DNA from: a virus
Strand: one strand, 5' to 3'
IMG/VR virus record: IMGVR_UViG_3300036860_000387
Span: 1-34,967 of that record
Length of the DNA stretch: 34,967 nt
Shown piece by piece: positions 102-34,967 of this stretch; the stretch's first letter is position 1; the number at the start of each line of letters is the position of its first letter. The notes below the pieces were generated by a model. The model had not been told where the DNA came from and did no database searches. It saw nothing but the letters and a program-made list of their open reading frames with translations. The position numbers and the translations under genes were made by a program.

Positions 102-180
102 GTCTTTTAACCCTCCTGCTTCGTTTTGACCGGCGCGTTGGTGTCGTCGACCTCGTACTCGACGGTCGATTCGATCAGTC
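1..180. repeat. Left copy of 180-bp terminal redundancy (contig circularity)
   Basis: Bases 1-180 recur at 34788-34967 with one difference: C at position 54, T at 34841. On the minus strand this is a CAG/CAA change in a Gln codon of the 34475-34888 gene, so it is silent. The repeat begins inside one gene and ends inside the portal gene, which is what a circular assembly cut at an arbitrary point gives, not a biological terminal repeat. The mismatch suggests population variation or a read error. Confidence 0.95.
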
Positions 181-1963
181 CCGTCGCCTCGTTGCGGCGC
201 ACCACATCACGCCGCGTGCGCTTCGGCTTCTGCGGATCGTTCACTCGGACATCGACGTGCGGCGCCGGCGGTGCCTGGACCGTCACGGGTACGTCGACCA
301 TGCGCTCCGGGAGCTGCACGGTCACTGAGGTCACCTCGGATCGCGAGGTAACGCCCAGCTTGCGAAGCACGCGGTTCACATGGCTCTCGACCGTGCGCAC
401 GGAGATGAAGAGGCGCTCGGCGATCTCCTTGTTCGAGAGATCGCGTGCGAGCAGGTCGCGGATCTGGCGCTCTCGGGGCGTGAGTTCGATGTCGTCCTCG
501 TCGCCCTCTTCCTCGAGGCCCTCGGGCACGGGCACCTGCGCGCGCGGAGCGGGCCCCGGCGGAAGCGCGGGCGTGGGCGTCGGCGGGGGGAGCTGTGGCG
601 GCGATGCGGGGGGCTCTTCCGTCTCTGGCGGCTGCAGCTGCACCGACGTGAGCCCGGTGTGCTTGCCCTTGAGACGGGCGATGTCGCCGGCGACGACGGC
701 CTCGATCGCAGCGTCGGGCTCGAATCCCGCGTTGATGAGCGTCTGCAGCGTCTTGGCCTCCATGTCGTGGATCTCGGCGGCATCCTTGACGTCCTCGCGC
801 AGATAGGGGATGTCGCGGTCGTCGTACCAGAGCTCGGAGTCGTCGGGCACGTTGATGAGGTACGCGAGCGACCCTGCGACGTTCTGCCACAGGAAGGCCA
901 TCGAGCCGTTCGCCCACGCGCGCCGAGCCTGCACGTAGTTCGAATACGTCGCGGCGTTCAGGCCCTCAGAGAGCCCGGCGATGATCGGCGGCACCTGCGC
1001 GGCCGCGGCGATACGCGTCTCGCCGGCACCCTGGACGTTCTTGAAGTCGATCTGCCGCATCACGGCACCGAGGGGCGTGACCGTCGCGCCGGCGCCGAGG
1101 TAGAGCGTGCGGTATGCGTTCTCCTTGCCGTCGCTCTTCTCTTTCATCAGCTCGCGCCAGGTCTTGAAGACCTCGGGCGAGATCGACTTGTCGAGCGCGA
1201 CCGCCATGTTCGGCGTCGCGCCGTTCTCGAAGAACCGCAGCTTGTGCTCGGTCGCCGCGGCGTCGCCGAGGATGTCGGTGAGCACCGGCGTGATCCAGCT
1301 CATGCCGCGGAAGCGGAAGGACGGGTCGGGCATCGGCGCGTAGTGGGCGACCTGCTCGGGCAAGAGGATCTGCGGCTTCTGACTCGAACCGAGCCCGCCT
1401 GGGCTGTAGAGGTAGCCGACGACCTCGGCGTCGAGCTGCCAGTTCGGGTCATCGGCGTCGGTCTCGCTGCCGACGACGATCGTCATCCAGTCTGGGCGCA
1501 CCGGGCGGATAGCCTTGCCGCGTCGCACCGCGTAGAAGTTCCCGGCGAGCGAGGCATGCTGCTCGGCGCGCGCGAGGAGATCGCCAGTCGTCGCGCGCGA
1601 CCACGGCCGCTCAAGGACCGCGAGCTCCTTGCTGCCGTACAGCTCGCCGGCGCGACCGTTCAGGCGCCGGCGGAACTGGAAGCGCGCCTGCGAAAAGAGC
1701 ATGAGGCGCGCGGCCATGCAGGCGAAGACGATGCCGTTGCGCTTGTAGATCCCGGCCACGTAGCTCTCGAACGTGCCCGATGGGACCTCCTGCTTCGACG
1801 TGATCGTCTGCTGCGGCATGAACGGGTAGCTCAGCCCGCCGAAGCTGAAATACGACAGGTACTCGCTGAACGACAGCGCATCGCGCTCCGATGCCGGCGC
1901 GAGCCGACGCGCGAGATGCGTGCGCAGCGCGTCGATGAGGCCGAGCCCCCGCGGCACGATCAT
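107..1963 (-). CDS. Portal protein with an embedded LuxR-type HTH domain
   Basis: HK97-type portal, 618 aa, the dodecameric ring at the unique capsid vertex through which DNA is packaged and ejected. It follows the large terminase directly (ATGA overlap, 1960-1963), the standard portal position, and residues 1-440 have portal-like organisation. I chose ATG 1963 rather than GTG 1969 because of the overlap and a GGAG 5 nt upstream. Residues ~441-490 are a Pro-rich then acidic linker. Residues ~494-544 are a full GerE/LuxR HTH ([31 protein letters not shown]). After it comes a tail of about 70 residues, with a basic patch [12 protein letters not shown], ending near the stop. The HTH is in frame and inside the tail, so it is a domain insertion rather than a neighbouring gene. 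Portal identity is strong; the role of the HTH is unknown. Confidence 0.9.
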
Positions 1964-3561
1964 GCCCACTCCACGAGCGGCTGGGCCGGCGGCGCAAGCG
2001 CGCCCTTCTCGATCGCCTGGCCGCGCGCGACCTCGGCGAGGATCCCGGCGACGAACGCGTCGATGAAGAGACCCTGCTTCTTCGGGACGACCTTGAGGTA
2101 GTACGGGTTCGCCGCTGGGCTCTCATCCGGCCGCGGCGCGCGGCGCTTGCCCTTCGTGAGCGCCGCGCTCTTCGCGTGCAGGGCGAGGATCGGGTCGCCG
2201 TTGTGCGTGAACGCACCCTTGAAGTGCTCGAGGAACCGCGTGATCGCGTCGTCCATCCGTCGCTCGACGTTCGTCGGGAACTCGACGATCCGCTCCGGCC
2301 AGCGCGCCGCCCACATTGCGAAGTACTCCTGCCAGCGGTACGGATCGCCGAAGAGGAAGCGCACGTCGTACGCGTCGAACGCCGCGGCGAGGACCTGGTC
2401 GACCTCGCTGCGCGGCACGAGCCCGTCGGCGTAGTCGGCGGGGTTCCACACCTTGATCGGGAACCAGCGACCGTCGCTCACGCGGCTCGCGACGAGCGCG
2501 GTGAAGTCACGCGACCGGGAGCCATCGAAGCCCAGCGCGATCACGGTGCCGCGCTCAAGCTCGCCCGGCCGGGCGGCCGCGTCCCATCTCGCGGAGTCGA
2601 CTGCGTCCGTGACGCCGACCTCGATCCTGTTGAAGAAGTAGCGCATCGCCGTCGCCGGCGAGGAGCAGACCGCCGGATCGCGCGCGTCGGCCAGCACGCG
2701 GACCAGGTCGACCCACCAGCTGTCGCCGTACACGATCCCGAGCTGCTCGAGCGACTCCTGATCGTCCTCGAGGTTCGGCCGCCGCAGCTCGCGGCCCGCG
2801 CGGTCCTTGCCGCCGTTGTAGTCGATGAGCACGTCCGGGGCGCGGCTCTCCTGGGTGCGCTGCGCCACGGAGGACTCCGACGGGTCATACGCGTTCGTGG
2901 ACTCGGCCCACCGGCCGCCCATGCCGGCGATGTTTCGCTTCATGTTCTCGGCGAGGACGACGCCGCCGTTCGACACGATCATGAGGTGCGTCTCTTCGAA
3001 GTGGCCGTAGGTGAGGCGCGCGCCCAGCCGCGCGCGCCCCGACGACGTCTGCGGCTCGAGCTGCCCGCCGCTCTCGAGCTTGATGTCGAGCATCCCGACG
3101 TCGACGCCGGGCAGATCCGCGATCGGCCCCGCGACCATGCCGAGGATCGCCAGCCAGGTGTTGTCGGTCTGCGCCTCGCTCGTCGCGACGATCTGGATCC
3201 ACGGTGTGGGCTGCGGACGGCCCACCGGCTCGCCGTCCGCGTCCCAGCCGTCGAAGCGCACAGGTCCGAGGAGCTCGCACAGGTCGATCCCGCCGCAGAA
3301 CGGGCTCTTCCCCCACTTCTGCGCGCGCATGAGCTGCGCGCCGCGGTAGACGAAGGCGCTCGAGGGACGGCGCTCGTCGAGGACCGCATCGGGGTGCAGG
3401 CGATAGAAGCGCTTGAGGAACACGAGCATCTCGTCGGTGAGCCGGTACGGCTCTCCCTGGTGGAGCCCGTCTGGAATCACGCAGAAGGCCTCGATCCATT
3501 GCGCGACCTGGATCCCGAGCGTCGGGTACTCGCCCGGCCGACGCGCGCCACGCCACGGCAT
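1960..3561 (-). CDS. terL: Terminase large subunit
   Basis: ATP-driven packaging motor and nuclease, 533 aa. The N-terminal ATPase half carries a degenerate Walker A-like stretch QKWGKSPF (residues 81-88). The C-terminal RNase H-like nuclease has the three expected acidic positions: D346 in GFDGS, D406 in LFGDP and D501 in FIDAFVAG. It starts at ATG 3561, sharing one base with the stop of the small-subunit gene (TGATG), and overlaps the portal start by 4 nt. The long open frame continues upstream of ATG 3561, but that part overlaps the small terminase out of frame and is not credible. Context and motifs make the call firm. Confidence 0.93.
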
Positions 3562-3989
3562 CAGTCGGCCACCTGGTCCATGCGCGTCGCGATGTCGACG
3601 ACGTTCGGGCCCGCGTCGTCGCCGACGTCGGTGATCTCCCACCGAAGCCGCAGCATCGACATCGGCGAGAGCCCGAGCCGGTCGGCCATCTGCCGGCGCT
3701 CGCCGAGGAGGATCGCGGGGCACTTCGGGCGCTCGCACGCCGCAAGCAGCCGGACGTAGATCGCGACCTCGTCGTACCAGCCGAGCCGCTCCCAGGCGAC
3801 GGCCTGCGGCGTGGCCCACACGCGGGCCCAGAGCTCCTTCTCCCGCTTCGAGGGCCGTTTGATCGGCCAGGCCGGCGGATCGCCGGCGCGCCCTGTCGAC
3901 GGCAGGCGCATCGCCGCAGCCGCTCCGAGGCCTCGGCCCTTGCGTCGCTGTTGCGATTCCGGCTTCGGCGCCGGCCCCATGCCCGCCAT
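3561..3989 (-). CDS. terS: Terminase small subunit
   Basis: DNA-recognition subunit of the packaging enzyme, 142 aa, identified by position directly 5' of the large terminase and by composition: a basic disordered N-terminus (residues 1-45), then helical segments ending in a TRMDQVAD C-terminus. ATG 3989 is preferred; GTG 3992 and ATG 3980 are possible because none has a strong SD. It sits downstream of an HNH endonuclease gene and a 100-bp non-coding stretch with CTGGGCC repeats, an arrangement seen in cos-type HK97-like phages, where small terminase binds near its own gene. Confidence 0.8.
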   Translation of the reverse strand: MAGMGPAPKPESQQRRKGRGLGAAAAMRLPSTGRAGDPPAWPIKRPSKREKELWARVWATPQAVAWERLGWYDEVAIYVRLLAACERPKCPAILLGERRQMADRLGLSPMSMLRLRWEITDVGDDAGPNVVDIATRMDQVAD

Positions 3990-3992
3990 CAC

Positions 3993-6103: not shown

Positions 6104-6181
6104 TCACATGGCGTGCATTTTGGGAGAGCCAGAGGGCGTCGTGGAGCCGCGACTAGTGACTCCGTACCGATAGAAGGTCAC
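6104..6181 (-). CDS. Possible 25-aa coupled peptide
   Basis: A GTG at 6181 overlaps the stop of the LuxR-type HTH frame (GTGA) and opens 25 codons ending at 6104. There is no SD or motif. It is listed only because the overlap pattern matches the rest of the operon; it may equally be chance. The gap 6064-6103 beyond it holds the SD of the next gene and nothing else I can see. Confidence 0.2.
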   Translation of the reverse strand: MTFYRYGVTSRGSTTPSGSPKMHAM

Positions 6182-6435
6182 CTCGCGAGCTCGCAGAGCT
6201 GAATCCGGTTTGCAGCTCCGACCTTCGCTCGCGCGGCAGCGACGTGATTGCGCACGGTGTGTATGGAGATCCCGAGCTCGTCCGCGATCTCCTTGTCGCG
6301 CAGCCCCCGCCTGAGCCGCGCGATAATCTCGCGCTCGCGTTTGGTGAGACGATCGACGGGGCTCAGCCGGAGGCCACCGATGCTCTCCCTGTGAAGCGCG
6401 CGAAGATCCGCCGCGTGAACGCGATCGCGCGGCCA
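6178..6435 (-). CDS. LuxR/GerE-type HTH module, -1 frame to the endonuclease, no standard start
   Basis: The frame open from 6435 to the TGA at 6178 encodes a clear LuxR-type HTH: LTKREREI, KEIADELGIS, HTVRNHV, ending LCELAR at the stop. Aligned without gaps, 22 of 51 positions match the HTH in the portal. No ATG, GTG or TTG exists in this frame before the domain. The upstream stop is at 6436-6438 and the endonuclease ends inside it at 6363. Options: a -1 ribosomal frameshift making an endonuclease-HTH fusion, initiation at a rare codon (ATC 6381 follows AGGGAG at 3 nt), or a one-base assembly error. I cannot see a classic slippery heptamer. Confidence 0.5.
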   Translation of the reverse strand, partial: WPRDRVHAADLRALHRESIGGLRLSPVDRLTKREREIIARLRRGLRDKEIADELGISIHTVRNHVAAARAKVGAANRIQLCELAR

Positions 6436-7571: not shown

Positions 7572-7825
7572 GACTCGGCACCGATGGCGAAGGTGAGCAG
7601 CTTCCGCAGCCAGCCGACGCTCCGCTCGAGATTGCCCATCCGCTCGAGGAACGCGTCGAGCGCCTCCGCGGTCTTGAGGTCACGGATCCGGCCCTCGACC
7701 AGGCGGTGATCGAACCTCCGCGCGAGCTGGCGATCGAGCGCGACCTCGACGAGGCTCTTCTCGCGCAAGGCCGGGCCGATCGTCTCCGTGGAGGCGGGCG
7801 CGGCCGCTCTCCCGAGCTGCGTCAT
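7568..7825 (-). CDS. Helical protein downstream of integrase
   Basis: An 85-aa, mostly alpha-helical protein (LVEVALDRQLARRFDHRL, LDAFLERMGNLERSVGWLRK) with no membrane segment. ATG 7825 overlaps the integrase stop by ATGA, so it is made together with the integrase. Small helical partners of large serine integrases can be recombination directionality factors, which are diverse and hard to recognise; position makes this a candidate, nothing more. A coiled-coil interaction protein is the plain reading. Confidence 0.6.
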   Translation of the reverse strand: MTQLGRAAAPASTETIGPALREKSLVEVALDRQLARRFDHRLVEGRIRDLKTAEALDAFLERMGNLERSVGWLRKLLTFAIGAES

Positions 7826-9378
7826 GCGCTCGCCTCCTCACGGGCCCAGGCGAGCCATTCCGCCAGGCCCTCTACGCGCGGTGTGCGGTCACGTCGGGCT
7901 GGGTCCGAAGAGCCCTGCGCGACTGCACATGCCGCAGCCGCCTCGAACACGAGCGGCCGGTACTGCTCGCGGACGCGGACCTCGATATCGCCGTTGCGCG
8001 CGAGACGGACGTGGTCGAACCACTCGTCGACGAAGCGCCGCTGCAGGCCGAGATCGGAGCGCTCCCAGACGTCGCCGATCTTCGCGAGGAGCTTGAAGGC
8101 CTCGGCCGGCGGCTCGGCCGCGGTCGATGTGGGCAGGGCCTCGAGGGCGCGTGAGAGCCGGCGGCGATCGGCGAGGTACTGGTCCTCGGCCATGTCGCCC
8201 CAGCGGTAGAGGTCGCGGATCCGGCCGAGCTCGCCCTCGAGCTGCTGGCGGCGGATACCCGCGACCTGGTTCGTCGACGCGTGGTCGCGGATGTAGCGCG
8301 CGACCCGGGTCTTCGCCTCGGCGCCCAGGCGCCACTGGCGGAACCACTCGCCGAAGATCCGCAGGAGCACGTGCTCGCTGAACGTGCCCTTGCGGCAGCC
8401 GCGCGGCGCATGGCGGATCCGTGCATGCCAGCGGCGCGAGGGATAGGTGATGTACTGCCCGCCCTGGAAGCCCTCGCCGCAGTCGGCGCAGCGCGCGACG
8501 CCGCTGAACACGTACTGGTGGGTCCGCGTCGGCTTCGGCCGCTCGGCGCGCTCGTCTATGAGCGCCTGGACCTTGTCCCAGAGCTGGCGCGAGACGATCG
8601 GCGTGACCGCGTCCTCGCGCGTGACCGTCTCGCCCTTCGTGTCGCGGCGCAGCGTGCCGATGGCGATCGGGTTGTGCAGGATCTCGTCGACGGTGAAGCT
8701 CTTGAACGGCTTCCCGCGGATCCGCAGGCCCTGGCTGTTCAGCTCGTCGGAGAGCGAGAGGAAGCTGTACGCGCCTGTCGCGTAGCGCTCGAAGATGAGC
8801 GCGCGGGTCGGCGCGTCCTCGTTCAGCTCGAGGCTGCGCTTGTCGGCCGAGCGCCGGTAGCCGAAGGCCGCCCATCCGCCCGACGTGCCGCCCCTGTCCC
8901 ACTTGCGCTCGTAGCCGCGGCGGACGTTCCGCGCGAGCTTGCGCGAGTAGGCGGCCGCGGCGTTGATGTGCTGGCCGATCTGATCGCGCCAGTCCTCGTC
9001 GTGGATCGTGAGGATGTCCTCGTCGCAGAAGTAGACCGGCACGCCGATGTCGCGCAGCGCGTCGAGGTAGACCCAGGCATCGGTCTCATTGCGCGCGAAG
9101 CGGGAGACGTCGTACGCCAGGAGCACGTCGAAGCGCTTGGCCCGGGCATCGGTGACCATCCGCTGGAAGTCCGAGCGCTTAAGCGCGTTCGTGCCCGAGA
9201 CGAGGTCGGTGTAGTAGTCGCCGAGCGCGCGCAGGCCGAGCTTCTCGACGGCGCGCTGCTGGGCGTGCTTCTGGATCTCGGGGCCGAAGCGATCGTCCTT
9301 GCCCTGGGCGACCGTCGACTCGCGGATGTAGCCGCGCGGCTTCTTGTCCTTGAGCCAGTCGCGATGTTCGCCTCTCAC
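7822..9378 (-). CDS. int: Large serine integrase (site-specific recombinase)
   Basis: A 518-aa recombinase that would insert the phage into the host chromosome through a 5'-phosphoserine intermediate. The N-terminal resolvase domain has the catalytic serine in GYIRESTVAQG (S21) and the D90/R93/R96 cluster in AYDVSRFAR. The recombinase domain follows (WAAFGYRR, LNSQGLRIRGKPF, LHNPIAIGTLRRD), then a zinc-ribbon segment (RCADCGEGF and a later C in RGCRKG) and a helical coiled-coil region. GTG 9378 overlaps the stop of the RHH gene (GTGA). Unusually the gene sits inside the early operon, with no non-coding space beside it for an attachment site. Confidence 0.93.
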   Translation of the reverse strand: MRGEHRDWLKDKKPRGYIRESTVAQGKDDRFGPEIQKHAQQRAVEKLGLRALGDYYTDLVSGTNALKRSDFQRMVTDARAKRFDVLLAYDVSRFARNETDAWVYLDALRDIGVPVYFCDEDILTIHDEDWRDQIGQHINAAAAYSRKLARNVRRGYERKWDRGGTSGGWAAFGYRRSADKRSLELNEDAPTRALIFERYATGAYSFLSLSDELNSQGLRIRGKPFKSFTVDEILHNPIAIGTLRRDTKGETVTREDAVTPIVSRQLWDKVQALIDERAERPKPTRTHQYVFSGVARCADCGEGFQGGQYITYPSRRWHARIRHAPRGCRKGTFSEHVLLRIFGEWFRQWRLGAEAKTRVARYIRDHASTNQVAGIRRQQLEGELGRIRDLYRWGDMAEDQYLADRRRLSRALEALPTSTAAEPPAEAFKLLAKIGDVWERSDLGLQRRFVDEWFDHVRLARNGDIEVRVREQYRPLVFEAAAACAVAQGSSDPARRDRTPRVEGLAEWLAWAREEASA

Positions 9379-23471: not shown

Positions 23472-25256
23472 CTAGAGTCCCTGCCCGGCCAGCGCGGCGC
23501 CGGGAATCACGACTCGTCCCATTGCGCGCGCAATAGCCTCGCCCTCGACCTGGACGACGATTGGCTGGGCCATCCCGAGGTCGCCGTGGCCGCGCCAGCC
23601 CGCGGCGATGTCGGCGGGGTCGATGTTCCGCTCGAAGAACCCACCGGGCCCGCGCACGCCGCCGCCGCGGCCCCAGATCGAGCTCGAGCCCGGGCCGTTG
23701 ATGCGGCTGTAGACCGAGTCGAGCGCGTCGAAGGCGAGCTGCTTGTTCTTCACGACGCCCTGGGCGAACCCGGCCATGACCTGGAGGCCCATCTCCTCGA
23801 AGACCGTCGAGGGCGAGTGGATCCCGAGGAAGTCCTTGATGCCCTTGATCGCGTCGCCCAGCGCTGCCACGACCTTCGCGACGATCGCGTCCTTCAGGCC
23901 GCCGAGTCCGTTCATGAGACCCTCGATCATCCCGATGCCCAGCTTCACGAAGAAGCCGATCACGCCGGGGATCGCCTCGGTGAACACCCATTTGCCGATC
24001 GTGAGCAGGATCCCCGGCAGGTGCTCGAGGATCGCCGGTATCGCGGTCGTCAGGATGAACTCGCCAAACTTGAGGCCCCATCCGATGAGCGTCTGCCCGA
24101 TCTCCTCGGCGTGATCGTTCAGCCAGTGCAGCGCGCTGGTCAGCAGGCCGAGCAGCTCGTTCAACATCGGGCCGATCTGCGGACCAATCCAGGCGATGAA
24201 CTCCTTCGCCCAGGCAAGCAGCGCGTCGAGGATCTTCGGCACGCTGTCCCTGACGAAGCCCAGCAGCCCATTGAGGATGCTGCTAGCGCGATCCTTGAGC
24301 GTCGCGAAGATCGCCGGGACGTCGCCCGACAGCACGGCCTTGAAGAGCTCGCGGATGAAGGCGAGGCTCTGCATGATCGCTCCGGCGATCTCCGGGCCCA
24401 CGATCCGCTTGAGCGTCTCGCCCGCCGCAGGTGCGCTGCCGGTGATGACGCCGAACATCTCGACGAAGATGTCCTTCGCCGTCGAGACGACCTGGCCGAG
24501 GTTGCCGAAGAAGGCGAGGAAGGCTGGCTGAGTGACGAAGGCGCGTAGGCCCTCGATCACCCCGACCGCCGCCTGGGCGAGCCCAGTGAACGCCGGCAGG
24601 ATCGCCGCACCGACGTCCTCCTTGAGGTTGTCCATCTGGTTCTGGAAGATCTGCCACTGGCCGGCGGCGGTCCCGACGTACGCCGCGCTCTGTCCGCCGA
24701 AGCGCTTCTGCACGTCCTCGAGGACCCGCGTGGCGTCGGCGCCCTTCTCGACGTGGATCCCGTAGCGTCCGAGCACGTTGGTCGTCTCGTCGGTGACCTT
24801 GCCCAGGAGCTTCGATGCGGTCGCGAGGTCGATGCCCGCGCCGCGCGCGAAGTCCATTGCGATGGGTAGCCGTTTCATGGCCTCGTCCACATCGCCGGTC
24901 TGCGCACTCAGAAGCGAGAGCGAGTCGCGCATCTCGCCGTCACTGAACGCGGTGAGCTTCTCCCAGGTCGCGATCTGATCCTCGATCGTCCCCTGCAGCT
25001 CGTCCCAGTTGCCGCCGGCGTTGCTCACCGCCTGCGCCAGGCGGAAGATGCCCTGTTCCTCGTCGGCGGCCGCGCGGGCGAAGTCGACGCCGGCGAGGAC
25101 CGCCGCGCCCAGGCCCGCGGTGAGCCCGCCGAGCGCGAGCTTCGCGAGGTCGCCGGATTTGCCCAGCTTGTCGAGCTGACCGCCGATGCCGGACAGCACA
25201 CCGCTCGCGGCATCCTTCGCCGCGAGGATGATCGCGACCTCGACGGCGTCGGCCAC
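23472..25256 (-). CDS. Tape measure protein
   Basis: A 594-aa protein that sets tail length and is ejected with the DNA. It starts with the usual VAIILAAKDAASGVLSGIGG segment, has several long hydrophobic and amphipathic helices (ALGGLTAGLGAAVLAGVDFA, PAILEHLPGILLTIGKW) and a C-terminal domain with an IWGRGGGVRGPGGFF loop. At about 0.15 nm per residue the tail would be about 90 nm. It follows the two frameshifted chaperone frames, as expected. GTG 25256 is immediately behind TAG. Confidence 0.85.
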   Translation of the reverse strand: MADAVEVAIILAAKDAASGVLSGIGGQLDKLGKSGDLAKLALGGLTAGLGAAVLAGVDFARAAADEEQGIFRLAQAVSNAGGNWDELQGTIEDQIATWEKLTAFSDGEMRDSLSLLSAQTGDVDEAMKRLPIAMDFARGAGIDLATASKLLGKVTDETTNVLGRYGIHVEKGADATRVLEDVQKRFGGQSAAYVGTAAGQWQIFQNQMDNLKEDVGAAILPAFTGLAQAAVGVIEGLRAFVTQPAFLAFFGNLGQVVSTAKDIFVEMFGVITGSAPAAGETLKRIVGPEIAGAIMQSLAFIRELFKAVLSGDVPAIFATLKDRASSILNGLLGFVRDSVPKILDALLAWAKEFIAWIGPQIGPMLNELLGLLTSALHWLNDHAEEIGQTLIGWGLKFGEFILTTAIPAILEHLPGILLTIGKWVFTEAIPGVIGFFVKLGIGMIEGLMNGLGGLKDAIVAKVVAALGDAIKGIKDFLGIHSPSTVFEEMGLQVMAGFAQGVVKNKQLAFDALDSVYSRINGPGSSSIWGRGGGVRGPGGFFERNIDPADIAAGWRGHGDLGMAQPIVVQVEGEAIARAMGRVVIPGAALAGQGL

Positions 25257-29335: not shown

Positions 29336-31057
29336 CTAGGCGACCTTGAGGAACTTGAACTGCGACTCGGAGAGCGTCTTGCCGCCGTTCCGCCAGAAGG
29401 CGTACAGGCCCCGCTGTCCCGTCGGGAAGCGGTTCGCCGCGCCGAAGAGGTGCGGGATGATCTCGAGGGACATGCCGACGCGGTCGATGATGATGAAGTA
29501 CCGGAAGTTGCCCATGAGCAGGATGCGCGAGCCGGTCGTGACCGTCGCGAGCATCTGCGAGCTCTCGTACACCGGGTAGCCGAGACCGGCCGCGCCGGTG
29601 TTTCCGTCGCCGCGATCCGAGGACGGCTTGTTCGCGAGACCCTGCGGCCAGTAGAGCCAGAGGCCCGCGCCGCCGGCGGTGTCGAACTGCCGGATCTTGT
29701 TCAGGATGGTGCGGTTGCCGACGATCGTGGAGCGCGGCCGCGCGCGCGGCACGACGCCCTCCTCGAGCTTGAACGTGTCGCCGATGACGAACGCGCCAAC
29801 GCCCGCGGTGGCAATGTCGGCGCCGGCGCTCATGGCATTGAGGCCGAAGGGCTCGTTCGTGCCGGACCCGGAGAAGAACTTGTTCGACTCGAGGTCATCC
29901 TTCGCGTCGGCGATGAGCACCGACATCTCGCGCTGCAGGGCGGCCCAGTCCTGGTCCGCCTCGATCGAGAACGGGACGAACGCCTGCGCACGGACCGCGT
30001 CGACCGAGGGCTGCGCCATCGTGGGCGTGTTGTCTGACGCTTCCGTCGCTTCCGCCGCGTACGCCGCGGTGATCGCGCCGCTCGTCGCGCCCTTCCAGTT
30101 GTTCGTGACGACCTGCTCCGTGCGGCAGATCGCGCGCCACGGGTTGACCACGCTGTTCGACGTGGGGATCACGCTCGCGTCGAGCGTGAAGGGAAGCGGT
30201 ACGCCGGTCGTGCCGAGGCCGAGGGCGCGCTCGGCGGCCATCGTCCGCTGGTACGCGCGCTGCTCTTCGGCCGTCAGGTCGTAAGCCGGGACGTTGCGCG
30301 CCATCGCGCGCATGAGCTTGGAGAACGCGCGCTTGTACGACGGATCGGACGACGCGAGCACGTAGCGCGCGAAGTCGCCAGTCTCGTCGCCTTCGTCGAT
30401 CGCCTTGTCGAGCAGGCGCTCGACGTGCCCGCGGGCGCGGTCGTTCGACCATCCGCCGTAGACCCGGACGTTGTCGGGGTCCTCGGTAATCGGGAACTTC
30501 ATGACTTCGATCGCCTTGCGGGCTCGATCGTGGAGCTGCTGCCGCGTGCGCTCGGGATTCGAGAGGTCGACGCGGATGGTCGAGAGGTCGTAGATGTCAC
30601 GCTCTTTGTTCGAGCCCCGCGCCTCGGGGTGTGAGTAGAGGCGCTCGTCGTCGCGCTCGGTGTGCTCGGGCTGGTCGGAGATCCGCTGCACGTAGGCGAG
30701 GCGCTTCTCGTACTCCTCGACGCGGCGCTGGGCCTCGTCGCGGGTGTCCTTGAGCTTCGACCACTCCTCGCGCTCGGTGTCGGTCAAGGGCTCGACGCCG
30801 TGCTCGGTGTGGATCTCGGTCATGCGCTCGTCGATCTGCTTGACGAGGTCGACGAGGCCCTGCTTCTCGCGGATCGACTTCAGATCCGGGATCTCGAGGA
30901 CGGTGCCGCCGACCAAGAGCAGCGGCCCGAAGGCGGCCAGCTCGAGGACGCCGGCGACGTATGCGACCGCGAGCGCCGCGAGCGCGAAGGCGAAGCCGAT
31001 CACGATCGGGGCGGGCGGCAGGTTGCGCGCGAGACGGGCTAGAGCGTGCGGAGCCAT
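29336..31057 (-). CDS. Major capsid protein with hydrophobic N-terminal extension
   Basis: HK97-fold capsid, 573 aa from ATG 31057 (GAGGAGGG SD, ideal spacing). Residues ~14-36 and ~39-52 are hydrophobic (PIVIGFAFALAALAVAYVAG, AAFGPLLLVGG), then a coiled-coil delta-like scaffolding region (~56-130: DLKSIREKQGLVDLVKQID, EEWSKLKDTRDEAQRRVEEY). The mature shell domain runs from ~210, with the usual late motifs (ANRFPTGQRGLYAFWRNGGK at the C-terminal end). The adjacent protease would remove the N-terminal part. A membrane-like segment ahead of the delta region is atypical: normally such proteins begin near residue 55 of this one. Capsid identity is firm. Confidence 0.88.
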   Translation of the reverse strand: MAPHALARLARNLPPAPIVIGFAFALAALAVAYVAGVLELAAFGPLLLVGGTVLEIPDLKSIREKQGLVDLVKQIDERMTEIHTEHGVEPLTDTEREEWSKLKDTRDEAQRRVEEYEKRLAYVQRISDQPEHTERDDERLYSHPEARGSNKERDIYDLSTIRVDLSNPERTRQQLHDRARKAIEVMKFPITEDPDNVRVYGGWSNDRARGHVERLLDKAIDEGDETGDFARYVLASSDPSYKRAFSKLMRAMARNVPAYDLTAEEQRAYQRTMAAERALGLGTTGVPLPFTLDASVIPTSNSVVNPWRAICRTEQVVTNNWKGATSGAITAAYAAEATEASDNTPTMAQPSVDAVRAQAFVPFSIEADQDWAALQREMSVLIADAKDDLESNKFFSGSGTNEPFGLNAMSAGADIATAGVGAFVIGDTFKLEEGVVPRARPRSTIVGNRTILNKIRQFDTAGGAGLWLYWPQGLANKPSSDRGDGNTGAAGLGYPVYESSQMLATVTTGSRILLMGNFRYFIIIDRVGMSLEIIPHLFGAANRFPTGQRGLYAFWRNGGKTLSESQFKFLKVA

Positions 31058-31836
31058 TCGTCCCTCCTCAGGGGGGAGTGCTCGCGGCGCTTCGTGCCGG
31101 CCGCGGCGGGGGTCGCGATCGTGCGCGAGTTGGAGCGCGAGCGAAGGTGCGCGGACGCCTCGGGGTACTGCGGGAACGTCACCGGGCCGAACTCCTCCAC
31201 CATCGCCTCGGTGATGACCCGCTCGGGGATCCCGCGCGGGTTGTACGAGCTCGTCTTGGGCTTCTCGGTGAACTGCTCGCTCATCACGTAGAAGCGGAAG
31301 GACGCGCCATACGCGCCGGCGCGCAGGCCCTCCATGACGAGGTCCGGGATCCCCCGGTAGAGACCGACCTCGTAATACGCGCCGGTGTCGTCCTCCTCGA
31401 GGACATCGATCGAGCCGAGGACCTTGTTCCCGAGGTAGGGGTCCCGGCCATGATTGAACGTCGAGCGCATCTGCGCGCGGTCGTTCTGGATCGTCTTTGC
31501 GAAGGCGCCCTTCGCGAACGACTCCATGAAGTTGCCTTCCCAGAGCGACTCGATCTCGCTCCAGACGTCGAAGACCGCGAAGTGACCGACCATCGTGGGC
31601 TGGCTGCCCGGGTCCTCGGCGCGCATTGCGCGCGCAACGGGGAGCTGGCGCGCGGCGTGGGCGGCGACAACACGCCGGCATGCACGCTCATCGACGCGCT
31701 CGCCGGTGAGGAGCTCGCGACGGAAGTCGAGGGGCAGAGCGCGGTACTGCGCCTGCAGGCGGGCGCGCTCCTCGCGATGGCCCGCCTCGTGCGCCCGGGT
31801 GATTGCGGCGCGCAGGGCGCCGACGGCCCCTTCCAT
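31039..31836 (-). CDS. Prohead serine protease (HK97 gp4-like)
   Basis: A 265-aa protease that matures the prohead by cleaving delta domains. The core runs from ~80 to ~190: MVGHFAVFDVWSEIES, TFNHGRDPYLGNKVLG with H129, and GLRAGAYGASFRFYVM with nucleophile S179. The 80 residues before the core are a helical extension. ATG 31836 is preferred over TTG 31893; neither has a good SD. The gene overlaps the capsid start by 19 nt, and the capsid SD lies inside its last codons. Confidence 0.88.
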   Translation of the reverse strand: MEGAVGALRAAITRAHEAGHREERARLQAQYRALPLDFRRELLTGERVDERACRRVVAAHAARQLPVARAMRAEDPGSQPTMVGHFAVFDVWSEIESLWEGNFMESFAKGAFAKTIQNDRAQMRSTFNHGRDPYLGNKVLGSIDVLEEDDTGAYYEVGLYRGIPDLVMEGLRAGAYGASFRFYVMSEQFTEKPKTSSYNPRGIPERVITEAMVEEFGPVTFPQYPEASAHLRSRSNSRTIATPAAAGTKRREHSPLRRDEWLRTL

Positions 31837-34474: not shown

Positions 34475-34888
34475 CTAGAGCTTGAAAATCTTGTTCGCGC
34501 CGTTGTCCCACTGGATCGTCACGTCACCGCCATTGGGCGTAAACGGCAGGCCGGTCGCGGTATCGATGAAGGCGATGAGCGGGCTCGTCGTGTCGACGCC
34601 GGTGTCCTTGTAGACCACGATCGACTCCACGCTGGCGCCGCTAACCGCGGCGATCGTGACATCCGCGGCATCGGCGACACCGGCAGTCACGGTCTTCCCT
34701 GTGAGCGCACCGCTCGTCGCGATGCGCGCCCCCGCCGCGATGTCGGAGAGGAACTGATCCGTCGCCGGCGCGGGCGTGTCGACACCGTGGTCGACCAGCA
34801 CCACTTTGATCGTGTCGGTATCCCAATCGAGCGCGGGGCTTTGCGAGAGGAAAGATTCCCGCGCCTTGTCGAAGAGTGCGTTCGCCAC
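34475..34888 (-). CDS. Widespread phage virion-region protein, 137 aa
   Basis: The sequence MANALFDKARESFLSQ, then DTDTIKVVLVDHGVD, LTGKTVTAGVADAADVTI, SPLIAFIDTATGLPFTPNGG and QWDNGANKIFKL matches the pattern of a family I know from many siphophages, near portal and appendage genes, with no established function. GTG 34888 has AGGAGGG 9 nt upstream. It immediately follows the portal gene across the contig junction (portal stop at 107 equals position 34894). Probably a structural or appendage component. Confidence 0.8.
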   Translation of the reverse strand: MANALFDKARESFLSQSPALDWDTDTIKVVLVDHGVDTPAPATDQFLSDIAAGARIATSGALTGKTVTAGVADAADVTIAAVSGASVESIVVYKDTGVDTTSPLIAFIDTATGLPFTPNGGDVTIQWDNGANKIFKL

Positions 34889-34967
34889 GTCTTTTAACCC
34901 TCCTGCTTCGTTTTGACCGGCGCGTTGGTGTCGTCGACCTCGTACTCGACGGTCGATTCGATCAGTC
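34788..34967. repeat. Right copy of 180-bp terminal redundancy
   Basis: Second copy of bases 1-180. It lets the genes at both ends be joined: the 137-aa gene at 34475-34888 is complete here, and the portal gene that ends at 107 begins its 3' end again just after 34888. The true genome is therefore about 34,787 bp, circular or circularly represented. Confidence 0.95.

Follow-up and report, generated by a model that had tools for sequence, protein, structure and literature searches.

A LuxR-type helix-turn-helix on an HK97-type phage portal suggests a ring that grips the packaged genome inside the head

The portal protein of the phage genome analyzed here carries a LuxR/GerE helix-turn-helix (HTH) in frame behind an HK97-type core. 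In related soil phages this position holds either the same kind of HTH or a different one, an indication that the portal ring grips the packaged genome inside the head. With its 34,967 bases the window spans an entire IMG/VR virus record, and its ends share a direct repeat of 180 bases (1-180 and 34788-34967) with a single mismatch at base 54. Given this terminal overlap, the genome probably closes into a circle and is nearly complete, at about 34.8 kb. The integrase, terminase, portal, capsid and tape measure genes all lie on one strand (Table 1), and no tRNA genes were found in the window.

Table 1. Features of the window and of its portal protein
Feature	Position	Strand	Basis
Portal gene, 620 aa from GTG 1969 or 618 aa from ATG 1963	107..1969	minus	Pfam Phage_portal, PHROG 12
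Portal core, residues 81-401	767..1729	minus	Pfam PF04860
Pro-rich then acidic linker, residues 441-495	485..649	minus	sequence; pLDDT mostly 37-60
LuxR/GerE helix-turn-helix, residues 496-548	326..484	minus	PF00196; AlphaFold; PDB 1fse
Second low-confidence linker, residues 551-582	224..319	minus	pLDDT ~35-37 for 551-580
C-terminal beta-hairpin, residues 583-608	146..223	minus	predicted strands 584-592, 599-607
Terminase large subunit, directly upstream of portal	1960..3819	minus	PHROG 19179, PHROG 9
Terminase small subunit	3561..3992	minus	Pfam Terminase_7, 39 bits; also PHROG 226 'minor tail protein'
Stand-alone GerE reading frame, upstream of terminase genes	6181..6375 (frame to 6435)	minus	PF00196, 54 bits
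Serine integrase	7822-9378	minus	gene match
Tape measure protein	23472-25256	minus	gene match
Major capsid protein, 781 aa, long N-terminal part	29336..31681	minus	PF05065 residues 512-779, 99 bits; PHROG 10

The portal reading frame runs uninterrupted from either start to a stop at 107-109. Its core falls in the HK97-type family by its match to PF04860 (103 bits, E 2.1e-29, cut-off 39.1), and the gene matches PHROG 12 with 128 bits. The best Foldseek match is 9lw9, the head-to-tail interface of mycobacteriophage Mycofy1, at 46% identity; together with matches to the portals 6te8 and 8fql and the large terminase gene that adjoins upstream, this gives the protein both the fold and the gene place of a portal.

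An LuxR-type HTH in frame on the portal had been claimed in the initial annotation, and the GerE profile bears this out with 65 bits (E 4.8e-18, cut-off 23.5), with the small correction that the Pfam domain begins at residue 496. The closest solved domain by sequence is GerE from Bacillus (1fse, E 3e-11). An AlphaFold model built with 50 relatives folds the segment into four helices (498-508, 513-520, 524-538 and 543-550) with a pLDDT of 96-97, which disposes of the concern that it might not be an HTH; the linkers that flank it on both sides fall below 50, and the first is predicted to be mostly disordered. The computed net charge of the HTH is +3 or +4 in the GerE portals and +4 in the window. 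Ahead of the HTH are portal and linker rather than a receiver or ligand-binding domain, and the protein is no stand-alone GerE, so it does not have the architecture of a LuxR-family transcription regulator; nor is the fused domain an enzyme, as it would be in an effector fusion of the polyvalent type. An internal start that would yield the HTH as a separate product was rejected, given that no in-frame start before the HTH is conserved and that L007, a related contig, has none in the preceding 75 codons. Matches returned by PADLOC reflect the HTH only. The description of some 70 further residues after the HTH needs amendment, as a beta-hairpin is predicted at 584-607 beyond the second linker. 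By eye, the portals of L003 and L007 and the HTH-less portals of L008, L018 and L020 have similar-looking ends. The tails of L008, L018 and L164 have repeated Val-Pro-rich segments, such as VNVPEQP, followed by a charged C-terminal end.

The window is a metagenome contig, in which misassembly or a frameshift could fuse a portal to a LuxR gene, but the probability of such an artifact here is close to nil. No stop or frameshift interrupts the junction, and a chimera is ruled out by two independent contigs from other metagenomes, L003 (3300036864_000178) and L007 (3300044711_000022), which share the order of core, Pro-rich linker, GerE domain and tail, with the GerE domain above the Pfam cut-off at the matching site. 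Their cores diverge from that of the window by 17% and 27%, and their portals are 71% and 62-63% identical to it. The 3' end of the portal gene also falls within the 180-base overlap of the window's ends, and GC3 is high throughout the junction (0.82-0.93).

About 168 distinct related portal C-termini were collected and read by eye, with a Pfam profile survey of 51 portals and a search for GerE in 50 records. Most of these portals end in a disordered tail with no domain. Six distinct portals end in an HTH, and the true count may be higher, since weak HTHs can escape reading by eye. The search of the portal family for GerE domains that had been proposed at the outset thus found them in L003, L007 and L009, the last with a shorter GerE-like C-terminal domain at the same place (41 bits, above the Pfam cut-off). 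The other two, L052 and L066, have an unrelated HTH_23-like domain at the extreme C-terminus, behind linkers of very different length; in L066 it spans residues 481-525 and is modeled with a pLDDT of about 97. A quick tree of 120 portal cores places the window, L003 and L007 in one clade (support 100), L009 with them in a clade of seven rows (support 96), and L052 and L066 in a separate clade (support 99). The tree requires at least two changes, and by counts alone gain is not told from loss, but the two clades differ in the kind of HTH, so that the second probably represents a separate gain. The portal of the window is therefore not a one-off, since GerE domains were found on three portals and a GerE-like one on a fourth, with an HTH of another kind in a separate clade.

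Searches farther afield returned no more cases. Among GenBank phages, no match to the HTH query lies under a feature annotated as a portal, with about two thirds of the matching records unannotated. Among prophage portals at 29 loci, mostly from Actinomycetota, an HTH is absent from every one whose tail is complete. The cassette query A7 matched only its own two contigs, and the window's cassette query brought up seven GerE proteins, none of them in a frame that reads as a portal by eye. No description of a LuxR or HTH portal was found among open-access papers, in agreement with the initial annotation, which knew of none.

Within the trio of GerE portals, which relative is nearest depends on whether the core or the C-terminal cassette is compared. 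The cores of the window and L003 are the closest pair, at 83% identity, whereas the HTH of L003 is 72% identical to that of L007 and 51% to that of the window, and its hairpin 88% and 33%, respectively. Because the two kinships differ, the cassette seems to have been exchanged, or to be diverging fast in the lineage of the window. C-termini are hypervariable across this portal family, and in L174 (5132-6004) a portal of the same family is fused to an ADP-ribosyltransferase (Pfam ADPrib_exo_Tox, 43 bits, cut-off 23.4). Long C-terminal extensions in L169, L175 and L193 match no family at its cut-off; that of L175 is GNAT-like by eye. Elsewhere in the family, the portal frame of L093 (1322-4120) has a long insertion that by eye is intein-like, and that of L047 (4768-7401) is 877 residues long, with about 400 residues preceding the core.

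The leading explanation, tentative and held at somewhat below an even chance, is that an HK97-type portal uses a LuxR/GerE domain tethered to its crown to grip DNA within the head. The GerE domain would hang from the crown, at the C-terminus, on the flexible Pro-rich linker of about 55 residues. Solved relatives suggest a dodecameric ring with the crown inside the head, and if the ring of the window is the usual dodecamer, there would be twelve HTH copies per vertex, placing twelve DNA-binding heads in the capsid lumen. The heads would most likely grip incoming DNA, at its leading end or where it winds round the portal; such a grip would keep the genome from slipping, initiate its spooling or signal how full the head is. 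Because unrelated types of HTH occupy the same place, generic or avidity-driven binding is more likely than a highly sequence-specific one.

This explanation is ranked first because homology and the portals of phages 812 and P22 would put the HTH in the lumen. In phage 812, both crown and wing are on the capsid interior, and an anchor loop of DNA is bound by the wing ring; the authors of that study regard DNA contacts by the crown termini as plausible and propose that wing and crown anchor the leading end of the genome (PMC12886913). The C-terminal barrel of the P22 portal reaches into the virion, and a role in sensing packaged DNA has been proposed for this portal (PMC5290284). The suggestion of twelve heads at the packaging vertex keeps a real, shared, in-frame HTH as its basis, but a grip on terminase-bound DNA outside the head is less likely than one inside, as the portal C-terminus is expected inside. 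In favor of an in-head grip are the confidently predicted HTH, the retention of GerE at the same place in L003, L007 and L009, and the HTH_23-like domain in a clade distinct from that of the GerE portals. Against it, most relatives have no HTH, and the usual setting of a GerE domain is a sequence-specific regulator. A broader proposal, somewhat more doubtful, is that some tailed phages have portals that read the genome, in which twelve tethered HTHs inside the head, gained independently from different families, would set the order of anchoring, spooling or ejection, possibly by gripping the incoming genome at a preferred sequence, or would be released as a virion-borne regulator.

Next in rank, though unlikely, is that the HTH rides on the portal as cargo, to be freed in the head by a maturation protease and delivered with the DNA to act at phage or host promoters. 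The enzyme domain at the same place in L174 points to cargo rather than anchoring, and the extensions of L169, L175 and L193 occupy the same site. Published fusions of portal or MuF proteins to PBECR, 2H, Nudix and ART domains have been proposed to be packaged and injected (PMC5512222, PMC9503650). The genomes of L009 and L066 encode a head maturation protease, and the disagreement between core and cassette kinship also fits. Delivery would, however, require a portal-bound domain to be cut off at a putative cleavage site, the window's capsid protein has no protease domain above the Pfam threshold, and HTHs of different families in two portal clades are better explained by a shared need to bind DNA than by one regulatory target. 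Ranked third, and a little less probable again, is a role before assembly, where free portal would bind phage DNA in the infected cell as a packaging mark or as a regulator, possibly in concert with the stand-alone GerE protein or in opposition to it. GerE is a domain of transcription regulators, and a further pointer to regulation is the stand-alone GerE frame that accompanies the GerE portals wherever the upstream sequence is long enough. In the window, L003 and L009 this frame precedes the portal by about 3.5-4.4 kb, and it occurs in 3/3 GerE-portal genomes versus 1/14 other records (Fisher p 0.006, kinship ignored), counting records with at least 4.4 kb of upstream sequence, with lengths worked out by hand from contig ranges. 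The three genomes are close kin, so co-inheritance may account for the co-occurrence. Moreover, none of ATG, GTG and TTG precedes the HTH in the stand-alone frame of the window, where a possible CTG start overlaps the stop of the upstream frame. The portal and stand-alone HTHs of one genome are only 33-43% identical, no closer to each other than to GerE or other LuxR domains, so the portal HTH was rejected as a fresh copy of the stand-alone one. A small terminase is present, which also counts against a role before assembly and removes the idea that the portal HTH substitutes for it.

The lowest-ranked and improbable alternative of the four is that the HTH has no selected role, having been captured by recombination at a C-terminus that tolerates extensions. 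The hypervariable C-termini, and the absence of these domains from most members, would fit. However, the HTH of the window is kept at 44-51% identity to its relatives while the following linker is at only 15-19%, pairwise HTH dN/dS within the GerE trio is 0.37-0.71 (short, rough estimates), and HTHs are present in separate clades.

An in-head grip would bear on two structural questions: what holds the end of a phage genome that is packaged first, and how its spooling begins. With a portal whose DNA-binding head is defined, foldable and mutable, genome anchoring could be tested with point mutants, and the known portal-fused domains would widen from enzymes to DNA binding. Domains appended to portals are already known, including ART, Nudix, 2H, PBECR and InPase (PMC5512222, PMC9503650), and so the portal of the window is best regarded as a DNA-binding variant of a known architecture: no description of a DNA-binding fusion was found among open-access papers, but the fusion of a domain to a portal is not in itself new.

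Compared with the HK97-type portals of actinophages, namely Mycofy1 (9lw9) and the Gordonia phages RavenCo17 and Eyre, the portal of the window has 46-48% core identity. RavenCo17 and Eyre share with it the gene order of small terminase, large terminase and portal, but their portals end after a short acidic tail with no HTH. The HTH of the window matches the whole four-helix domain (PF00196) of GerE, NarL and DosR, yet unlike theirs it is attached to a structural ring protein. As in the effectors fused to portal or MuF proteins (the polyvalent proteins with ART, Nudix, 2H or PBECR), a domain is appended to a head or portal protein, but here it is a DNA-binding fold and not an enzyme. The likeness to the genome anchor of the Staphylococcus phage 812 portal would be one of function and not of family, in that a portal surface within the head would hold genome DNA; phage 812 does so with a wing belt and disordered crown ends, whereas the portal of the window has a folded HTH.
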